This document shows, one piece after another, positions 35,794 to 41,980 of a stretch of DNA of 42,534 nt. Every line of letters begins with the position of its first letter. The stretch's first letter is position 1. The DNA is taken from positions 1 through 42,534 of the forward strand of contig JAHECW010000027.1 of assembly GCA_024641545.1 (NCBI GenBank), written 5' to 3'. The DNA comes from Acidobacteriota bacterium. Its GTDB lineage: Bacteria > Acidobacteriota > Thermoanaerobaculia > Thermoanaerobaculales > Sulfomarinibacteraceae. The notes beneath the pieces are model-generated. The model did not search any database. It was not told the origin of the DNA and saw only the letters and a program-made list of their open reading frames with translations. Position numbers and translations under genes: made by a program.

Positions 35794-36207
35794 ATGGGAA
35801 CGCGCCGCCGCGCCAGAGAGCTCGCTCTGCAACTGCTCTATCAACACGAACACACCGGCGCCGATCTCGAAGCCATGCAGACCGATTTCGACGAGTGGAC
35901 GAGCGCGACCGACGGGGTCCGTGAGTTTGCCGATTTCCTGCTCCGCGGGACTCTGGCCAGCCTGGAAAAGCTCGACGAGGAGCTGAGCCTTCAGACGACT
36001 CACTGGCGTCTCGAACGGCTCGCCGCGGTGGATCGCAACATCTTGAGGCTGGCGCTGTTCGAGCTGACCCATGTACCCGACACGCCGCCGGCCGTGGTCA
36101 TTGACGAGGCGATTGAAATCGCCAAGAAGTACGGCGCCGAGGAGTCCGGTCGATTTGTCAACGGGGTTCTCGACGGTTACGTCAAACGAAGGCACGACGG
36201 TCGGTGA
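35794..36207 (+). CDS. nusB: Transcription antitermination factor NusB
   Basis: All-helical protein of 137 residues that binds boxA RNA together with ribosomal protein S10. Family motifs are RRRARELALQLLYQHEHTG at the N-terminus, ERLAAVDRNILRLALFELTHVPDTPPAVVIDEAIEIAKKYG and the ending FVNGVLDGYVKR. The length is normal. Its stop overlaps the GTG start of the following gene. Confidence 0.97.
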   Translation: MGTRRRARELALQLLYQHEHTGADLEAMQTDFDEWTSATDGVREFADFLLRGTLASLEKLDEELSLQTTHWRLERLAAVDRNILRLALFELTHVPDTPPAVVIDEAIEIAKKYGAEESGRFVNGVLDGYVKRRHDGR

Positions 36208-37175
36208 AGCCGATTCTCTTCGGCCTGGTGATTGCTGCAGCCGTCGCGGTCAACGCCGACGAGGCCGTGTATCTCATGCGCGGGCCGATCCTTCCTCTCC
36301 CGCACTCGGTCAACGGCTATGTTCTCGATATCCGTGACCGTGCCGACGGAGAGGTCGAGGTGCACGTCGAGACGTCGCTCAACCCCATCGGCGCGAGCGG
36401 CTCCTTCGCCGAGGTCGAAGCCGGAGAGGGCCCGACCGTGCCTCGAGGGTTCGAAGTGCCGAGGAGCCTGCGGTCGAGCGTGCGCGCTGAAATGGGCGCC
36501 TGGGATGCGGCGACCGCGGTGCTGAAGTGGGTTTCCAACCATCTCGCCCTGGTCGATGACGACAGCTTTCCGCAGGACGCCGCGTCGGTTCTCAAGCGGC
36601 GCGGTGGACGGTGTTCGGGGCTTGCAAATGCCACCGCGGCGCTGCTCATGGCCACGGGATTCGAGGCGCGAACCGTGAGCGGTCTCTTGATCACCGGGCG
36701 ACAGGCGATTCCTCATCGGTGGGTGGAATGCCGGTTGCCGGGAGCCGGGTGGGTCCCGACCGATCCGACCCTCGGCTGGTGGGTCGTCACCCCCCGGCAC
36801 GTCGCCTTCGCCCGGGCCGTTGACCAGGTTCCGTCGATCGAGGTTCTCGCGCCGGCCGCCGGCGAGCTGCACCGGCTGCCTCGGGTCGGCAATACCCTGG
36901 TTCGCCCGAACCTCGGCGCCGAACTCGTCTGCCGTTTGACGGACATGAGTGACGATCGTCGGGCGATCGCGTGGCTCTCCCGGGGGTCGGACCAGCGGCA
37001 GGCGGTTTTGGGGTACGAAGTGCGTTTTGCCAGCCTCCTTCCCGGGCGGTGGTTGCTCGAGATCGAGCTCGAGGGAAAGGTCGTCGAGCGGCGTGAATTC
37101 GACCTCCGGTCGGGAGTGGTTCACAGTTATGTCGTTCACCTGCCTTCGGTCGGGAATGAGGAGGTCGGGTCATGA
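36204..37175 (+). CDS. Exported transglutaminase-like (papain-fold) protein
   Basis: Protein of 323 residues starting at GTG inside the nusB stop (GTGA). A short signal peptide (KPILFGLVIAAAVAVNADEA) suggests export. The transglutaminase-like core has all three catalytic residues: Cys137 in GGRCSGLANATAALL, His171 in IPHRWVEC and Asp187 in WVPTDPTLGW. A C-terminal domain of about 110 residues is beta-rich. Bacterial members act as proteases, peptidases or amidases on unknown targets. Its end overlaps the next gene (ATGA). Confidence 0.85.
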   Translation: MKPILFGLVIAAAVAVNADEAVYLMRGPILPLPHSVNGYVLDIRDRADGEVEVHVETSLNPIGASGSFAEVEAGEGPTVPRGFEVPRSLRSSVRAEMGAWDAATAVLKWVSNHLALVDDDSFPQDAASVLKRRGGRCSGLANATAALLMATGFEARTVSGLLITGRQAIPHRWVECRLPGAGWVPTDPTLGWWVVTPRHVAFARAVDQVPSIEVLAPAAGELHRLPRVGNTLVRPNLGAELVCRLTDMSDDRRAIAWLSRGSDQRQAVLGYEVRFASLLPGRWLLEIELEGKVVERREFDLRSGVVHSYVVHLPSVGNEEVGS

Positions 37176-38518
37176 AACGGATTCTCTCTGGCAGCCTCAC
37201 TCATCTCGGACCGCCCGCCCTCATGAGATTGTTGTCAGCCACGGCCACCAGCGGTGTTTTGGAGTTGGTGACGGACGAGGGCTCCTTCCGGATGGAGATC
37301 GACCATGGCTGGACCGCGGTGCCTCCGCCCGATCAGCTCGATGCGGCGGGTCGCATCCTGTCGTGCGTCGAAGGAGCCTTTCGATTCGAACCGGGCGATG
37401 TCTCACCCGTCGATGGGCCGTCGTTGAGTCTCGGCGCTTTTGCCGATGCGGTTCGGTCGGGTTTGCGGGAACTCGATCACAGCCAACTGACCGAGATCGA
37501 GGTCGAAAGACTGGTGGCGGGGGAAATCGTCGAGCTCGCTCAATCGGCGACCCTGCCGAATATTCACCTCCTCGGAGCCAAACCTCCGGCCAATCCCCTC
37601 GATGATCTGCTCCAGGGTCTCGCGGATCAGGCGCCCGAAGAGCTGCTCTTCGCTCAGGTCGGTGTCGTGGCGCCGGATCCCCGCCTCTGGCGTGGCGCGT
37701 TGGAGAACGAGTGGCGCCGACGCGGATGGGAGGTCAGACAGATCGGCAAAAGCGGCGATGTCGATCTTGCCGAGTTCGACGTGATCGTCGTGCACCAGGC
37801 TGCGGGTGTCTCGCGCGGCGGCGGGTCGTCCAAGAGGCTCGATTTGGTACGGCGGGCGCGGGAGATCGAGCCACCCCTGCCCGTCGTGTGGGCAGCGCCT
37901 CTCGGTGATCCGCTGTGGGTGCACGAACTGGTCAAGGCCGGAGTCAGCTTCCTGCTCCCGGTTCCTCCCGGCGACGGTGGCGAGATCCAGAGTCGGTTTG
38001 TCGAAGACCTGACCCTGGTGGTTGACCGACAACTCAGATCTCTCCGACCCGCCAGCCGGTCGGTGCTGCCGCCGGCGGTGACCGAACTTGTCGATGCGCT
38101 TCTCCACGAGGCGGATTCTGAGCAAGCCGTGGGGGTCTTGTTGCAGCTGGCTTCGGGACACCTTCTCCGCGGGGCGGTGCTGATGGTCGAGGAGACGGCG
38201 ATCCGCTGTCGGGCCGGATTCGGCTACCCGCTTGTGCGCGGCACGCAGGCGCTGCCTCGGGGTCTGAGCATCCTCGAGCTGGTGATCAGATCCAACAACC
38301 CCACCATCGGTATCGACCCGGCGGCGGGAGGTTCCCATCGACTCGCGGAATTGCTCGGCCTCGAAGAGCTTCCGTCGGCGACCGCGGTCATCCCTCTCGG
38401 GATCGGGGCGTCGGTCGCGGGGATTCTCGTCGGAGATCGCGAGGGCGAAGGTCTCCCGGATCTCTCGGAGTTGGTGGTTCTTGCCGGTCGCCTCGGTGGG
38501 GTGGCGCTGCACTCATAG
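37172..38518 (+). CDS. DUF4388/PatA-like protein with receiver-like and GAF-like domains
   Basis: Protein of 448 residues. Residues 1-110 resemble the PatA/DUF4388 N-terminal domain (LSGSLTHLGPPALMRLLSATATSGVLEL, where SGSL and SGVLEL are typical). Residues 165-290 look like a receiver-type fold (DVIVVHQAAGVS, VSFLLPVPP) without a clear phosphoacceptor aspartate, so it is probably a pseudo-receiver. Residues 310-448 resemble a GAF domain (RGAVLMVEETAIRCRAGFGYPLV, TAVIPLGIGASVAGILVGDREG). It is likely a cytoplasmic signalling adaptor. Start overlaps the transglutaminase stop. Domain calls are by eye and moderate. Confidence 0.72.
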   Translation: MKRILSGSLTHLGPPALMRLLSATATSGVLELVTDEGSFRMEIDHGWTAVPPPDQLDAAGRILSCVEGAFRFEPGDVSPVDGPSLSLGAFADAVRSGLRELDHSQLTEIEVERLVAGEIVELAQSATLPNIHLLGAKPPANPLDDLLQGLADQAPEELLFAQVGVVAPDPRLWRGALENEWRRRGWEVRQIGKSGDVDLAEFDVIVVHQAAGVSRGGGSSKRLDLVRRAREIEPPLPVVWAAPLGDPLWVHELVKAGVSFLLPVPPGDGGEIQSRFVEDLTLVVDRQLRSLRPASRSVLPPAVTELVDALLHEADSEQAVGVLLQLASGHLLRGAVLMVEETAIRCRAGFGYPLVRGTQALPRGLSILELVIRSNNPTIGIDPAAGGSHRLAELLGLEELPSATAVIPLGIGASVAGILVGDREGEGLPDLSELVVLAGRLGGVALHS

Positions 38519-38719: not shown

Positions 38720-38748
38720 TTGACAGACTGTCGACTCTTGGATATCGT
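38720..38748 (+). promoter_or_regulatory. Sigma-70-type promoter before the FHA protein gene
   Basis: A perfect TTGACA (38720-38725), 17-base spacer and TATCGT (38743-38748) make a good housekeeping promoter with a start near 38755. The leader would be about 100 bases. The rest of the stretch 38519-38856 shows no gene and no clear terminator. Confidence 0.6.
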
Positions 38749-38856: not shown

Positions 38857-40677
38857 ATGGTGACCTTGGTCATCGAGGGCACGGGAGACTCCCAGCTGAC
38901 CTATCAGTTGGACAAGCAGAGCGTGTCCGTAGGCGCATCCAGCCACAACGATGTCGTTCTTCGTTTGCCCGGGGTTGCTCCCCAGCACGTCGTGATTCAG
39001 CGCAACGGCGCGGTCTACACCTTTCTCGGTCAGAATCGGCAGGTCGTGGTTCTCAATGGCGAACGTCGATCGCGCGGTGTGCTCAAAGTCGGCGACAAGA
39101 TCCGGATCGGCACCGCGACCATCGTCTTCAAGGGCGGTGATGAAGGCGAAACCGATGTCGCGGTGGTCGAGGGAACCCGGGATCGAGACATCGAGAGTGA
39201 ACCGGCGGCGGTGCTGCCGGCCGCCGACCAAAAGGAGCGCTCTGAGGTCGTCCTGTATCGTGAGCCCCACAGGCTGAGCGATGCTCGCCAGCACCTCGTG
39301 GAGATCTTCAGATCTCGGGTGCGATCGGATCTCGTGCCCTCGTTGCGCACCTTTTTTGCAACCGTTTTCACCGACCGCAAAGCGCTTTTGGCGTTGATCG
39401 ACGACGAGGGACGTTTTCAGCCGGTCATCTCCCAGTGGGAAGGAGACCTCCCGCGGCTGCCGGCTCGAACTTTCGAAGAGCTGGCGTCGACGGGGCGGTA
39501 TGCGGTCCTCAGGCTGGCCGGTCAGGTCCTCCTCGTCTACCCTGTCGACCGGGGTTCGGGTCAACCTAACGCGTATGTGCTGGTCGAGTCCACTTCCGAG
39601 GACCAGGACGAGGACCGCGAGCTGCTCGGCGAGTTCTCCCGGCAGCTCTCGGTCCATTGGGACCGGGTTGAACGATCGACTCTGGCCTACGGAGCCTGGG
39701 TCAAGAAGGCGCAACAGCTCTTGGAGACCCACCTGCCCGGAACTTCCCAGGCCGTCCACATACTGCGGGACACCGTGGGGGTCGCGGCCCGCTCCGCTTC
39801 GCCGGTGATGCTGTGCGGACCGGTCGGCGTGGGTCGGATGTTCCTCGCGAATCTGATCGCCTCGCTCCGCCCCGCGGGAGAGGCCCCGGTCCGCGTCTTT
39901 CAGGCGCGATCAGGCGACGACGCCGCCCTTCGGGTCGAGCTCTTCGGCGCCGATCGTGAGAGCGACGGAGAGAGTCTGGGAGAGCGCTCGCGGGGCGCGG
40001 TCGTCGTTGTCCGCGATGTCCACCTCATGACACCGGGGCTGCAGCGCGAGTTGGCCGCGGCGGTGACCCGGGATCTCGATTCCGCTTTCGGACCCTCCGT
40101 GCGTTGGATCGCCACAACCGGTGAGGACGCCATGGCAATGGTCAATGAGGGTGTCCTCGATGCGACGCTTTTCCGGCTCTTCGACCGCCAACTGATCCGA
40201 GTCCCGTCGCTGGATGACCGACGGGAGGATCTCCCGCTGATCATCGTTCGACTCCTCGAGCGGATCGGCGCCGAACAGGGCAAGGAGATCAGGGGGATCG
40301 AGCTGGAGACCTTGAACTCGCTCCTCGACTACGCCTTCGACGGGCAGATGACCGAACTCCTGGGCGAGCTTCAACGACTGGTGTCGGCCGCGCAGGACGG
40401 CGAGATGGTCAGGGGCGTGGTACCACGCCGAGCTTCGGCCGCACGCGGCGACCACGTTGACGAAGGCGATGCGCTCTACACATCGCTCATGACCAACGAT
40501 GACCTCAAGCTCGTGATTCCGGGGGTCGAAGCACTCATCATCGACAGGGTTCTTCGTCGTTTCAAGGGCAACCAGAGTCAGGCCGCGCGGACCTTGAATC
40601 TGTCCCGGGGCGCCCTGATCTCGAAGATCAAGGACTACGAGATTCCCGACTATCGCTCGCTCCGTCGGAACCGGTAA
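38857..40677 (+). CDS. FHA-domain protein with degenerate sigma-54-activator AAA+ domain and Fis-type HTH
   Basis: Protein of 606 residues. Residues 1-105 are an FHA phosphothreonine-binding domain (VSVGASSHNDVVLRLPGVAPQHVVIQ; LKVGDKIRIG). A GAF-like region covers about 130-280. The AAA+ part is degenerate: the P-loop reads CGPVGVGRM with Arg for the essential Lys, the LFGADRESDGESLGERSRG segment lacks GAFTGA, and Walker B is VVVVRDVH instead of a DE pair. The C-terminal Fis helix-turn-helix is intact (GNQSQAARTLNLSRGALISKIKDYEI). It probably binds DNA and a phosphorylated partner but cannot hydrolyse ATP or drive sigma-54 in the usual way. Confidence 0.85.
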   Translation: MVTLVIEGTGDSQLTYQLDKQSVSVGASSHNDVVLRLPGVAPQHVVIQRNGAVYTFLGQNRQVVVLNGERRSRGVLKVGDKIRIGTATIVFKGGDEGETDVAVVEGTRDRDIESEPAAVLPAADQKERSEVVLYREPHRLSDARQHLVEIFRSRVRSDLVPSLRTFFATVFTDRKALLALIDDEGRFQPVISQWEGDLPRLPARTFEELASTGRYAVLRLAGQVLLVYPVDRGSGQPNAYVLVESTSEDQDEDRELLGEFSRQLSVHWDRVERSTLAYGAWVKKAQQLLETHLPGTSQAVHILRDTVGVAARSASPVMLCGPVGVGRMFLANLIASLRPAGEAPVRVFQARSGDDAALRVELFGADRESDGESLGERSRGAVVVVRDVHLMTPGLQRELAAAVTRDLDSAFGPSVRWIATTGEDAMAMVNEGVLDATLFRLFDRQLIRVPSLDDRREDLPLIIVRLLERIGAEQGKEIRGIELETLNSLLDYAFDGQMTELLGELQRLVSAAQDGEMVRGVVPRRASAARGDHVDEGDALYTSLMTNDDLKLVIPGVEALIIDRVLRRFKGNQSQAARTLNLSRGALISKIKDYEIPDYRSLRRNR

Positions 40678-40715: not shown

Positions 40716-41336
40716 CTACACCTGCGTTTTCTTCTTCTTGCCGGTGCTGGGGGTTTCATCAACCGGGTCGGTCCTCGGCCCGAGCAACTGGATGACAAGA
40801 TCCCAGTTGAACCCCAGCCAAATCAGGAATGGGAATGAGAACCGCCCGGGGAGGTCGGTGAAATAGCGCCAGAACCCATAGAAATCGCGCGAAAAATTCG
40901 AGTAGTTCTGCAGGCTCCAGTCGGCGAGCGAGAGCGCGTAGAGACACTTGACGTGGAGCAACAGATTGATGCTCTGGGTGAGATAGAGGATGCACCAACC
41001 CATGAAGAGCCGTTCCAGCTGACGCCTTGAAAACGGTCGCGGCAGCGCCAGATAGAGGGCGAGCAGGACGATGGTGTTGAAGTGTTTCTCGGTGAGGGGG
41101 ATCGCCGGGATGCCCGAATCGGTTCGGAAATCTGCGCGCCGGACCTGCGCCCTGTGATCGTCCACGACGAGGCGCGTCACCCTGGGGACCTCGAACGACC
41201 TGATCAGCAGTTGGGCAAACCCCGAGATCGCAGTATCGAGCACCGGGCGGAGGAGCAACCACACCGCCATCGCCGCCAGCAAGGTCAACGGCAGCCGCTT
41301 GAGGAAACGACGGTAAAGCTCGACCTCTTCGCTCAT
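40716..41336 (-). CDS. Exosortase H-associated membrane protein
   Basis: Integral membrane protein of 206 residues encoded just after exosortase H on the same strand. It has an N-terminal helix (LPLTLLAAMAVWLLLRPVLDTAISGF), a short soluble loop, and later helices (HFNTIVLLALYLALP, FMGWCILYLTQSINLLLHVKCLYAL, FLIWLGFNWDLVIQLL). The C-terminus is lysine-rich. The start MSEEVELYRRF follows GGAGG; an in-frame extension upstream overlaps the exosortase gene and is not supported. Proteins of this kind accompany exosortase H in other genomes; their job is unknown. Confidence 0.75.
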   Translation of the reverse strand: MSEEVELYRRFLKRLPLTLLAAMAVWLLLRPVLDTAISGFAQLLIRSFEVPRVTRLVVDDHRAQVRRADFRTDSGIPAIPLTEKHFNTIVLLALYLALPRPFSRRQLERLFMGWCILYLTQSINLLLHVKCLYALSLADWSLQNYSNFSRDFYGFWRYFTDLPGRFSFPFLIWLGFNWDLVIQLLGPRTDPVDETPSTGKKKKTQV

Positions 41337-41382: not shown

Positions 41383-41904
41383 TCAACCTGCCTCTCGCTT
41401 CGGCGGCGCGGCAAAGAGGTGCGCCCAGACGATCCAAAGCGCCACCCCTGCCAGAATCACCAGCGACTGCCAGATGAAGATGTGAGATGAATTGAAGAGC
41501 TTTGGTAGGAAGATGCCGATATAAAAGAGCGAGATGATGCGCACCAGGTTGATTGCCTGGATGGCCAGCAGACCGCCGGCGACGCCGATGAGTTTGGCCG
41601 ACCACCGTGCCGGAAACGCGAGGACGCCGGAGACAAAGATCAAGCTGGTGATGAGCCCGTTACAACCGTTGTAGATGGTGACGGCAAAACGAGGTGACCG
41701 GAGAACACAGCCGTTGATGGTGATGTCCTCACCCATGAGGCCGAGAATGACGCCCGACACCCTGGCGATGAGGGTTGTGTAGGGGACGACGAACGCGTCG
41801 TTCACCGGTCGCAGGGCGATCACCGTGAAGCTGATCCCCAGGATGCTGAGAAAAACGATGAGAAATCGTGACTCTGGACGTCGCCAGAGGGTTCGTGGAT
41901 CCAT
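41383..41904 (-). CDS. xrtH: Exosortase H-like transpeptidase
   Basis: Polytopic membrane protein of 173 residues with the exosortase/archaeosortase catalytic set: Cys81 in YNGCNGL, Arg122 in INLVRII and His141 in NSSHIFIWQ. Enzymes of this family cut proteins with a C-terminal sorting tail, and XrtH-type enzymes act on IPTLxxWG-CTERM tails. The small size and the partner gene downstream favour XrtH over the larger EpsH type. The ATG at 41904 has GGAGG nine bases upstream; an ATG at 41922 adds six residues. No gene with a sorting tail is seen in this window. Confidence 0.85.
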   Translation of the reverse strand: MDPRTLWRRPESRFLIVFLSILGISFTVIALRPVNDAFVVPYTTLIARVSGVILGLMGEDITINGCVLRSPRFAVTIYNGCNGLITSLIFVSGVLAFPARWSAKLIGVAGGLLAIQAINLVRIISLFYIGIFLPKLFNSSHIFIWQSLVILAGVALWIVWAHLFAAPPKREAG

Positions 41905-41980
41905 TCGGACTGACCTCCCCACCTGCGCGCTCCGCGCCCGGCGCAGCGGTCATGATACCTGAACTCGCGGATGGCGATGG

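Follow-up and report, generated by a model that had tools for sequence, protein, structure and literature searches.

A likely sigma-54- and ATP-independent descendant of enhancer-binding proteins in Acidobacteriota, possibly tied to exosortase H

The window, a stretch of 42,534 nucleotides from an Acidobacteriota genome (contig JAHECW010000027.1), encodes a protein, P0001, whose AAA+ domain has lost the catalytic and sigma-54-contacting motifs of an enhancer-binding protein (EBP) and is kept under purifying selection. We consider it likely, with a probability of about 0.7, that P0001 is a DNA-binding regulator that works independently of both sigma-54 and ATP, in the manner of TyrR and VpsR, possibly acting on exosortase-H functions. 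It would descend from a sigma-54 EBP and would retain neither ATP use nor sigma-54 contact. Its AAA+ and lid domains may persist as a folded scaffold through which the protein assembles with itself or passes on a signal, its FHA-like and GAF-like domains may sense something through a contact that does not involve phosphothreonine, and its Fis-type helix-turn-helix (HTH) is predicted to bind DNA at promoters of the ordinary sigma-70 type, where, like TyrR and VpsR, it would either activate by contact or repress; exosortase-H functions may be among its targets.

Loss of the ATPase and sigma-54 motifs in a conserved protein

The features of the gene and its surroundings are collected in Table 1. 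In P0001 the FHA-type fold (Yop-YscD_cpl at residues 5-91, FHA at 23-85), Sigma54_activ_2 (295-452), the AAA lid (454-525) and HTH_8 (557-594) all score above the Pfam gathering cut-offs; the HTH_8 match agrees with an earlier sequence-only reading in which the Fis domain was intact. A Pfam search of P0001 gave no Response_reg match. An AlphaFold2 model was built from 32 orthologues; its AAA+ part resembles the ATPase domains of EBPs, among them VpsR (7v2b, Z 21.8), and its N-terminal part lies on the FHA domain 3poa with an rmsd of 1.7. The middle domain is GAF-like in its modelled topology only: a profile search with it found no PDB sequence at E values up to 1, and GAF profile support came from GAF_3 in just one of 20 members (E 0.028).

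Table 1. Features of the regulator gene, its protein domains and its neighbours (positions in the window)
Feature	Position	Strand	Basis
P0002, preceding gene: DUF4388-like, pseudo-receiver and GAF-like parts	37172..38518	+	Profile; structure model
Sigma-70-like promoter element, TTGACA-17-TATCGT	38720..38748	+	Upstream alignment
P0001, whole gene: FHA-like/GAF-like/dead AAA+/Fis HTH regulator	38857..40677	+	ORF, ATG start, 606 aa; model pLDDT 82.0 (mean)
FHA-fold domain (res. 1-96), without Arg/Ser/Asn phosphothreonine contacts	38857..39144	+	Pfam; 3poa Z 16.5
GAF-like alpha/beta domain (res. 136-275)	39262..39681	+	Modelled topology only
Pseudo-AAA+ core (res. 291-452)	39727..40212	+	Pfam; Z ~21 to EBP AAA+ domains
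Former Walker A, GPVGVGRM, Lys replaced by Arg327	39817..39840	+	Motif alignment
Site of deleted L1/GAFTGA loop (res. 364-380)	39946..39996	+	Motif alignment
Former Walker B acids, now Arg386-Asp387 (VVVVRDVH)	40012..40017	+	Motif alignment
AAA+ lid (res. 453-525), sensor II Arg lost, GNVREL now GQMTEL	40213..40431	+	Pfam; motif alignment
Fis-type HTH and conserved C-terminal DYRxLRR tail (res. 550-606)	40504..40674	+	Pfam; orthologue alignment
Exosortase-H-associated membrane protein	40716..41336 (ORF to 41414)	-	NF041730 E 1.3e-7, 31.5 bits vs cut-off 35
Exosortase H (XrtH)	41383..41922	-	TIGR04177, 126.1 bits vs cut-off 86

Orthologues number 33: with a threshold of at least 390 bits they were found in all 20 genomes of the family to which the window belongs (f1, counting the genome of the window itself) and in 12 of 17 genomes of the sister family f2, and one more lies on a contig in f9. 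The f9 contig came to light when 148 genomes of the class were searched with a profile, a search that also added weaker relatives in f16 (2/2) and f4 (13/14 by our reading of the search output, one of the 13 partial). This contig (L106, G089:C174, 4291 bases) carries an f1-type orthologue that groups with that of G004 at 100/96, and it is probably misbinned. In a sample of the phylum, searched with only three candidates scored per genome, 14 of 396 genomes matched at E 1e-48; nine belong to f1 or f2, four to f4 or f16, and the remaining match, G058 (f7), is AAA+/HTH-only. Two orthologue contigs derive from metagenome-assembled genomes named 'Holophagae bacterium', which NCBI taxonomy places in the Acidobacteriota. 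HTH_8, PF14532, FHA and Yop-YscD_cpl were each matched in 32 of 32 orthologues and PF00158 (Sigma54_activat) in 28 of 32.

Motifs were compared among the 33 orthologues, 14 distant relatives, three FHA-type EBPs and six active EBPs of the genome of the window; L039 and L040, which share contigs with L015 and L014, were dropped before alignment, the partial f4 member G138 (237-aa frame) stood outside the motif table, G137 had no member, and the FHA columns were read without one or two truncated f4 rows. The Walker A Lys is Arg in 32 orthologues, P0001 included, as the sequence-only reading had it, and Lys in one. This last (L042, from G036) reads GAPGVGKT and has still lost its Walker B. The same reading held that the Walker B acids were gone, which is right for the Asp, replaced by Arg in 30 of 33 orthologues and kept in none, but not for the second acid, which survives in P0001 as Asp387 (among the orthologues this Glu position holds Asp in 16, Glu in 3 and other residues in 14). 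The GAFTGA loop, also correctly called missing, is deleted in 33/33, and a search of the whole P0001 protein found no other copy. To that list the alignment adds both arginine fingers (R-fingers) and the sensor II Arg, replaced in P0001 and present in none of the orthologues. Five elements (Walker B Asp, GAFTGA, the two R-fingers and the sensor II Arg) are absent together in every one of the 33.

An atypical yet working ATPase or sigma-54 activator, with its motifs displaced or functionally replaced, would fit the P-loop Lys of G036, the Asp or Glu found at the second Walker B position in 19 of 33 orthologues and the persisting Sigma54_activat matches, but that joint absence in the whole set makes such an activator extremely improbable.

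Could the domain simply be decaying? We calculated pN/pS for 11 close pairs, in several of which dS is near saturation. The ratios were 0.12-0.26 for the AAA+ domain, 0.05-0.19 for the lid, 0.01-0.28 for the HTH, 0.04-0.25 for the FHA domain and 0.07-0.35 for the middle domain, with 0.26-0.92 for the linker; purifying selection acts on every folded domain, the dead AAA+ domain included. We exclude chance or sequencing error because 33 orthologues share the motif state and the folded domains are under selection. A pseudogene or frameshift was likewise rejected, given orthologue matches free of internal stops and the same selection.

A kept AAA+ fold would also suit a dominant-negative partner, in which the dead domain joins the rings of active EBPs, poisons them and thereby tunes sigma-54 promoters, and the genome of the window has 27 PF00158 matches, mostly strong. 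But a mere ring poison would not need the HTH, which is strongly conserved in P0001, and the R-fingers and sensor II are lost; we regard this alternative as quite improbable. Three other PF00158 matches in this genome, besides that of P0001, (G000, contigs C155, C78 and C126) are weak, at 25-32 bits, and these proteins could be further degenerate EBPs or unrelated AAA+ proteins.

The C-terminal part has Fis itself as a sequence relative (4fis, E 4e-4; NF001659, E 5.5e-7), which could point to an architectural or nucleoid protein of little sequence specificity whose other domains only set its oligomeric state. The Fis-type HTH is, however, general among EBPs, and the FHA-like and GAF-like input domains are conserved, so that we give such a protein little credence.

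The FHA domain and the preceding gene

The sequence-only reading took the FHA domain to be intact and the protein to be a phospho-dependent DNA-binding factor. The fold is there; the residues are not. The Arg, Ser and Asn at aligned positions 27, 41 and 62, which we take to be those that contact a phosphothreonine peptide, are each present in 0 of 33 orthologues, which have A/S, A/G and Q/L instead. A profile alignment to OdhI and EmbR puts the A/S at the Arg of the GR motif and the A/G at the Ser of SxxH, and alignment to FHA-type EBPs puts the Q/L at their Asn. Three such EBPs (L107-L109) keep the Ser and Asn and read S, A and S in the Arg column, which leaves the Arg column by itself unable to tell the two groups apart. 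Among the profile relatives of the P0001 FHA domain is that of KIF13B (3fm8, E 5e-4), with a similar pattern of G-S, P-x-H and NG, which is described as binding centaurin alpha-1 in unphosphorylated form (PMC9203973). KIF13B is a eukaryotic kinesin, unlike P0001, and serves as a structural precedent only. Because the contact residues are replaced and this relative binds without phosphorylation, phospho-dependence of P0001 appears unlikely.

Spelled out, the phospho-dependence of the earlier reading would have a Ser/Thr kinase make a phosphothreonine peptide whose binding by the FHA domain controls DNA binding. In its favour are the confidently modelled fold, with its match to the phosphothreonine-binding 3poa, and His44, which is retained in 33/33 orthologues. 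Against these stand the three replaced positions, throughout the orthologues, and the Arg and Ser losses seen against OdhI and EmbR, and we judge control of this kind to be improbable.

The preceding gene, P0002, had been described as a receiver-like/GAF-like adaptor and possible partner. The description stands, in that the model has a receiver fold and, at the C-terminal end, a part that is GAF-like, behind an N-terminus that is DUF4388-like (22.9 bits against a Pfam cut-off of 25). The partnership is not constant: P0002 adjoins the regulator in 14 of 20 f1 genomes, and perhaps in G014 too, where a contig end cuts off each of the two genes from what follows; it does so in none of 12 f2 genomes. 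In f2 the P0002 homologues are unlinked and diverged, and they occur in four of the five genomes that lack the regulator; on this co-occurrence P0002 was rejected as an obligate partner. The column of the phosphoacceptor Asp, a role assigned to it from the receiver pattern, is His208 in P0002 and His in 29 of 29 rows, making this a pseudo-receiver. Between nusB and P0002 lies a gene for a transglutaminase-like protein (36204-37175; PF01841, E 2.1e-16), and the order nusB, transglutaminase-like gene, P0002 recurs in the f1 genomes that retain the ribH-nusB flank.

When upstream regions were aligned within groups to seek shared elements, the only one to stand out was the sigma-70-like element of Table 1, which was counted, with no chance control, in 15 of 20 f1 and 0 of 12 f2 genomes.

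The exosortase H neighbourhood

Downstream lie the genes for XrtH and for the membrane protein associated with it, both running towards the regulator gene, so that their proximity need not mean a common promoter. The associated-protein gene lies next to the regulator in 15 of 20 f1 loci, and it does so even where the upstream genes are different (G003, G008, G013, G016 and G018). Using the f1 profiles we found XrtH and the associated protein directly after the regulator in 8 of 12 f4 loci as well; of the rest, two stop at a contig edge and two are without the pair. The same profiles did not find the pair beside the regulator in the f16 (0/2) or f2 (0/12) loci. Counted at any locus, XrtH occurs in 35 of 39 genomes, among them three of the five f2 genomes without the regulator; we therefore rejected the idea that regulator and XrtH always occur together, and with no adjacency in f2 the link is not obligatory. 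That the arrangement survives in two families, f1 and f4, whose other flanks differ is evidence that the dead and intermediate forms share an ancestor, and a hint that regulator and XrtH are functionally connected.

IPTL-CTERM signals, which we take to mark the substrates of XrtH, were found in 31 of 39 genomes, with 17 matches in G033. In the genome of the window, two proteins with frames of 898-900 aa (L172 and L173, on G000:C235 and G000:C225) have near-identical IPTL-CTERM tails. We searched for an operator by running a Gibbs sampler on the regions upstream of the G033 regulator gene and of 12 IPTL-CTERM genes from the same genome, omitting one of three near-identical L157 regions, and nothing rose clearly above shuffled sequence. 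The best palindromic scores were 103.4 at width 16 (eight shuffles reached at most 96.8) and 108.8 at width 20 (at most 107.4); without symmetry they were 129.0 (shuffles at most 126.8) and 137.1 (at most 132.7). As the excess is small, the sites differ from one another, and the shuffles were few and had half as many restarts, we take this as no result.

There is a precedent for an EBP-type protein tied to an exosortase system, namely PrsR, a sigma-54 response regulator described for PEP-CTERM genes (in passages of PMC1569441). PrsR combines a receiver with a sigma-54 core, whereas P0001 has no Response_reg match and sits beside XrtH; TIGR02915, the PrsR family, scores 43.6 bits on P0001 against a cut-off of 502.6. 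A role in exosortase-H functions is possible because the genes stayed together in two distant families, and a reasonable guess because an exosortase-linked EBP is known; it is a tentative proposal all the same, and the weakest step of our explanation. A more specific and rather unlikely version would make P0001 a dedicated XrtH regulator, the counterpart of PrsR, that shed first sigma-54 and then ATP and whose former ATP pocket binds another anionic signal, linking the sorting of cell-surface proteins to that signal. The pocket does hold two conserved arginines, at 327 (Arg in 32 of 33 orthologues) and 386 (30 of 33). A search of the open-licence literature found no paper on XrtH or IPTL-CTERM. 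P0001 is put forward as a candidate regulator for exosortase-H systems.

Decay within the class and known relatives

The 14 relatives in f4 and f16 have the GAFTGA loop deleted, 14/14, as the 33 dead forms do, and keep the P-loop Lys (14/14), R-finger 1 (14/14), R-finger 2 (13/14), the sensor II Arg (14/14) and the second Walker B acid (14/14); their Walker B Asp has become Glu in 12 and Asn in 2. In a phylogenetic tree the dead forms are a single clade (100/100), and a further 100/100 branch splits 47 pseudo-type rows from 9 ATPase-intact rows; these 9 rows are a small outgroup, and the tree gives no firm branching order among f4, f16 and f1/f2. Judged by the aligned residues, one class holds a ladder of stepwise decay, with the f4 and f16 proteins as its apparent intermediates, and the simplest story would have sigma-54 contact lost first and ATP use later. 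Sigma-54 itself was not lost, since rpoN was found in 36 of 39 related genomes. The motifs, the selection and the tree together support the core of the sequence-only reading, that an ancestor of the enhancer-binding type gave rise to a sigma-54-independent, ATPase-dead and probably DNA-binding factor.

Intact counterparts occur in the same order of bacteria. L107-L109, from G034, G015 and G005, are FHA-GAF-AAA-Fis EBPs that share the domain order of P0001 and resemble it over most of its length; unlike P0001 they retain the Lys, the Walker B Asp and Glu, both R-fingers and the sensor II Arg, as well as the FHA Ser and Asn. With these ATPase motifs intact, they have GVATG or GAATG where GAFTGA would stand, with Ala for the Phe in 3/3, and they may also differ in sigma-54 contact.

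P0001 is known in kind, as a sigma-54-free EBP descendant. Published descriptions have TyrR, DhaR, HupR, the NtrC proteins of R. capsulatus and Caulobacter, and VpsR with GAFTGA lost or changed and acting with sigma-70 (passages in PMC3162934 and PMC10274813). P0001 shares with the TyrR/VpsR type its EBP ancestry without GAFTGA and its Fis-type HTH, its action with sigma-70 being predicted; the likeness to TyrR, DhaR and HupR is drawn from their published descriptions. VpsR of Vibrio cholerae, which like P0001 has no sigma-54 loop and matches its AAA+ fold, reportedly regulates sigma-70 promoters and can do without ATP (PMC10274813), and has been linked to exopolysaccharide (PMC3162934). It is described with a conserved aspartyl phosphorylation site, whereas P0001 carries domains of FHA-like and GAF-like kind and does not match Response_reg. 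The Caulobacter NtrC is reported to need its Walker residues and that of R. capsulatus to need ATP binding (PMC10274813); in contrast, P0001 has also lost the P-loop Lys, the Walker B Asp, the R-fingers and the sensor II Arg. The P0001 family was not named in the titles or abstract openings covered by our open-licence literature search, which is weak evidence of novelty.

What is unusual about P0001 is the completeness of its loss and the presence of living intermediates in one class. Single cases of activators that left sigma-54 were already known; here one class of Acidobacteriota holds three living states, with the ATPase intact, with the loop lost and with all catalytic residues lost. These three states, together with a dead domain under selection, make the order of events by which an ATP-driven activator became an ATP-free regulator directly testable.
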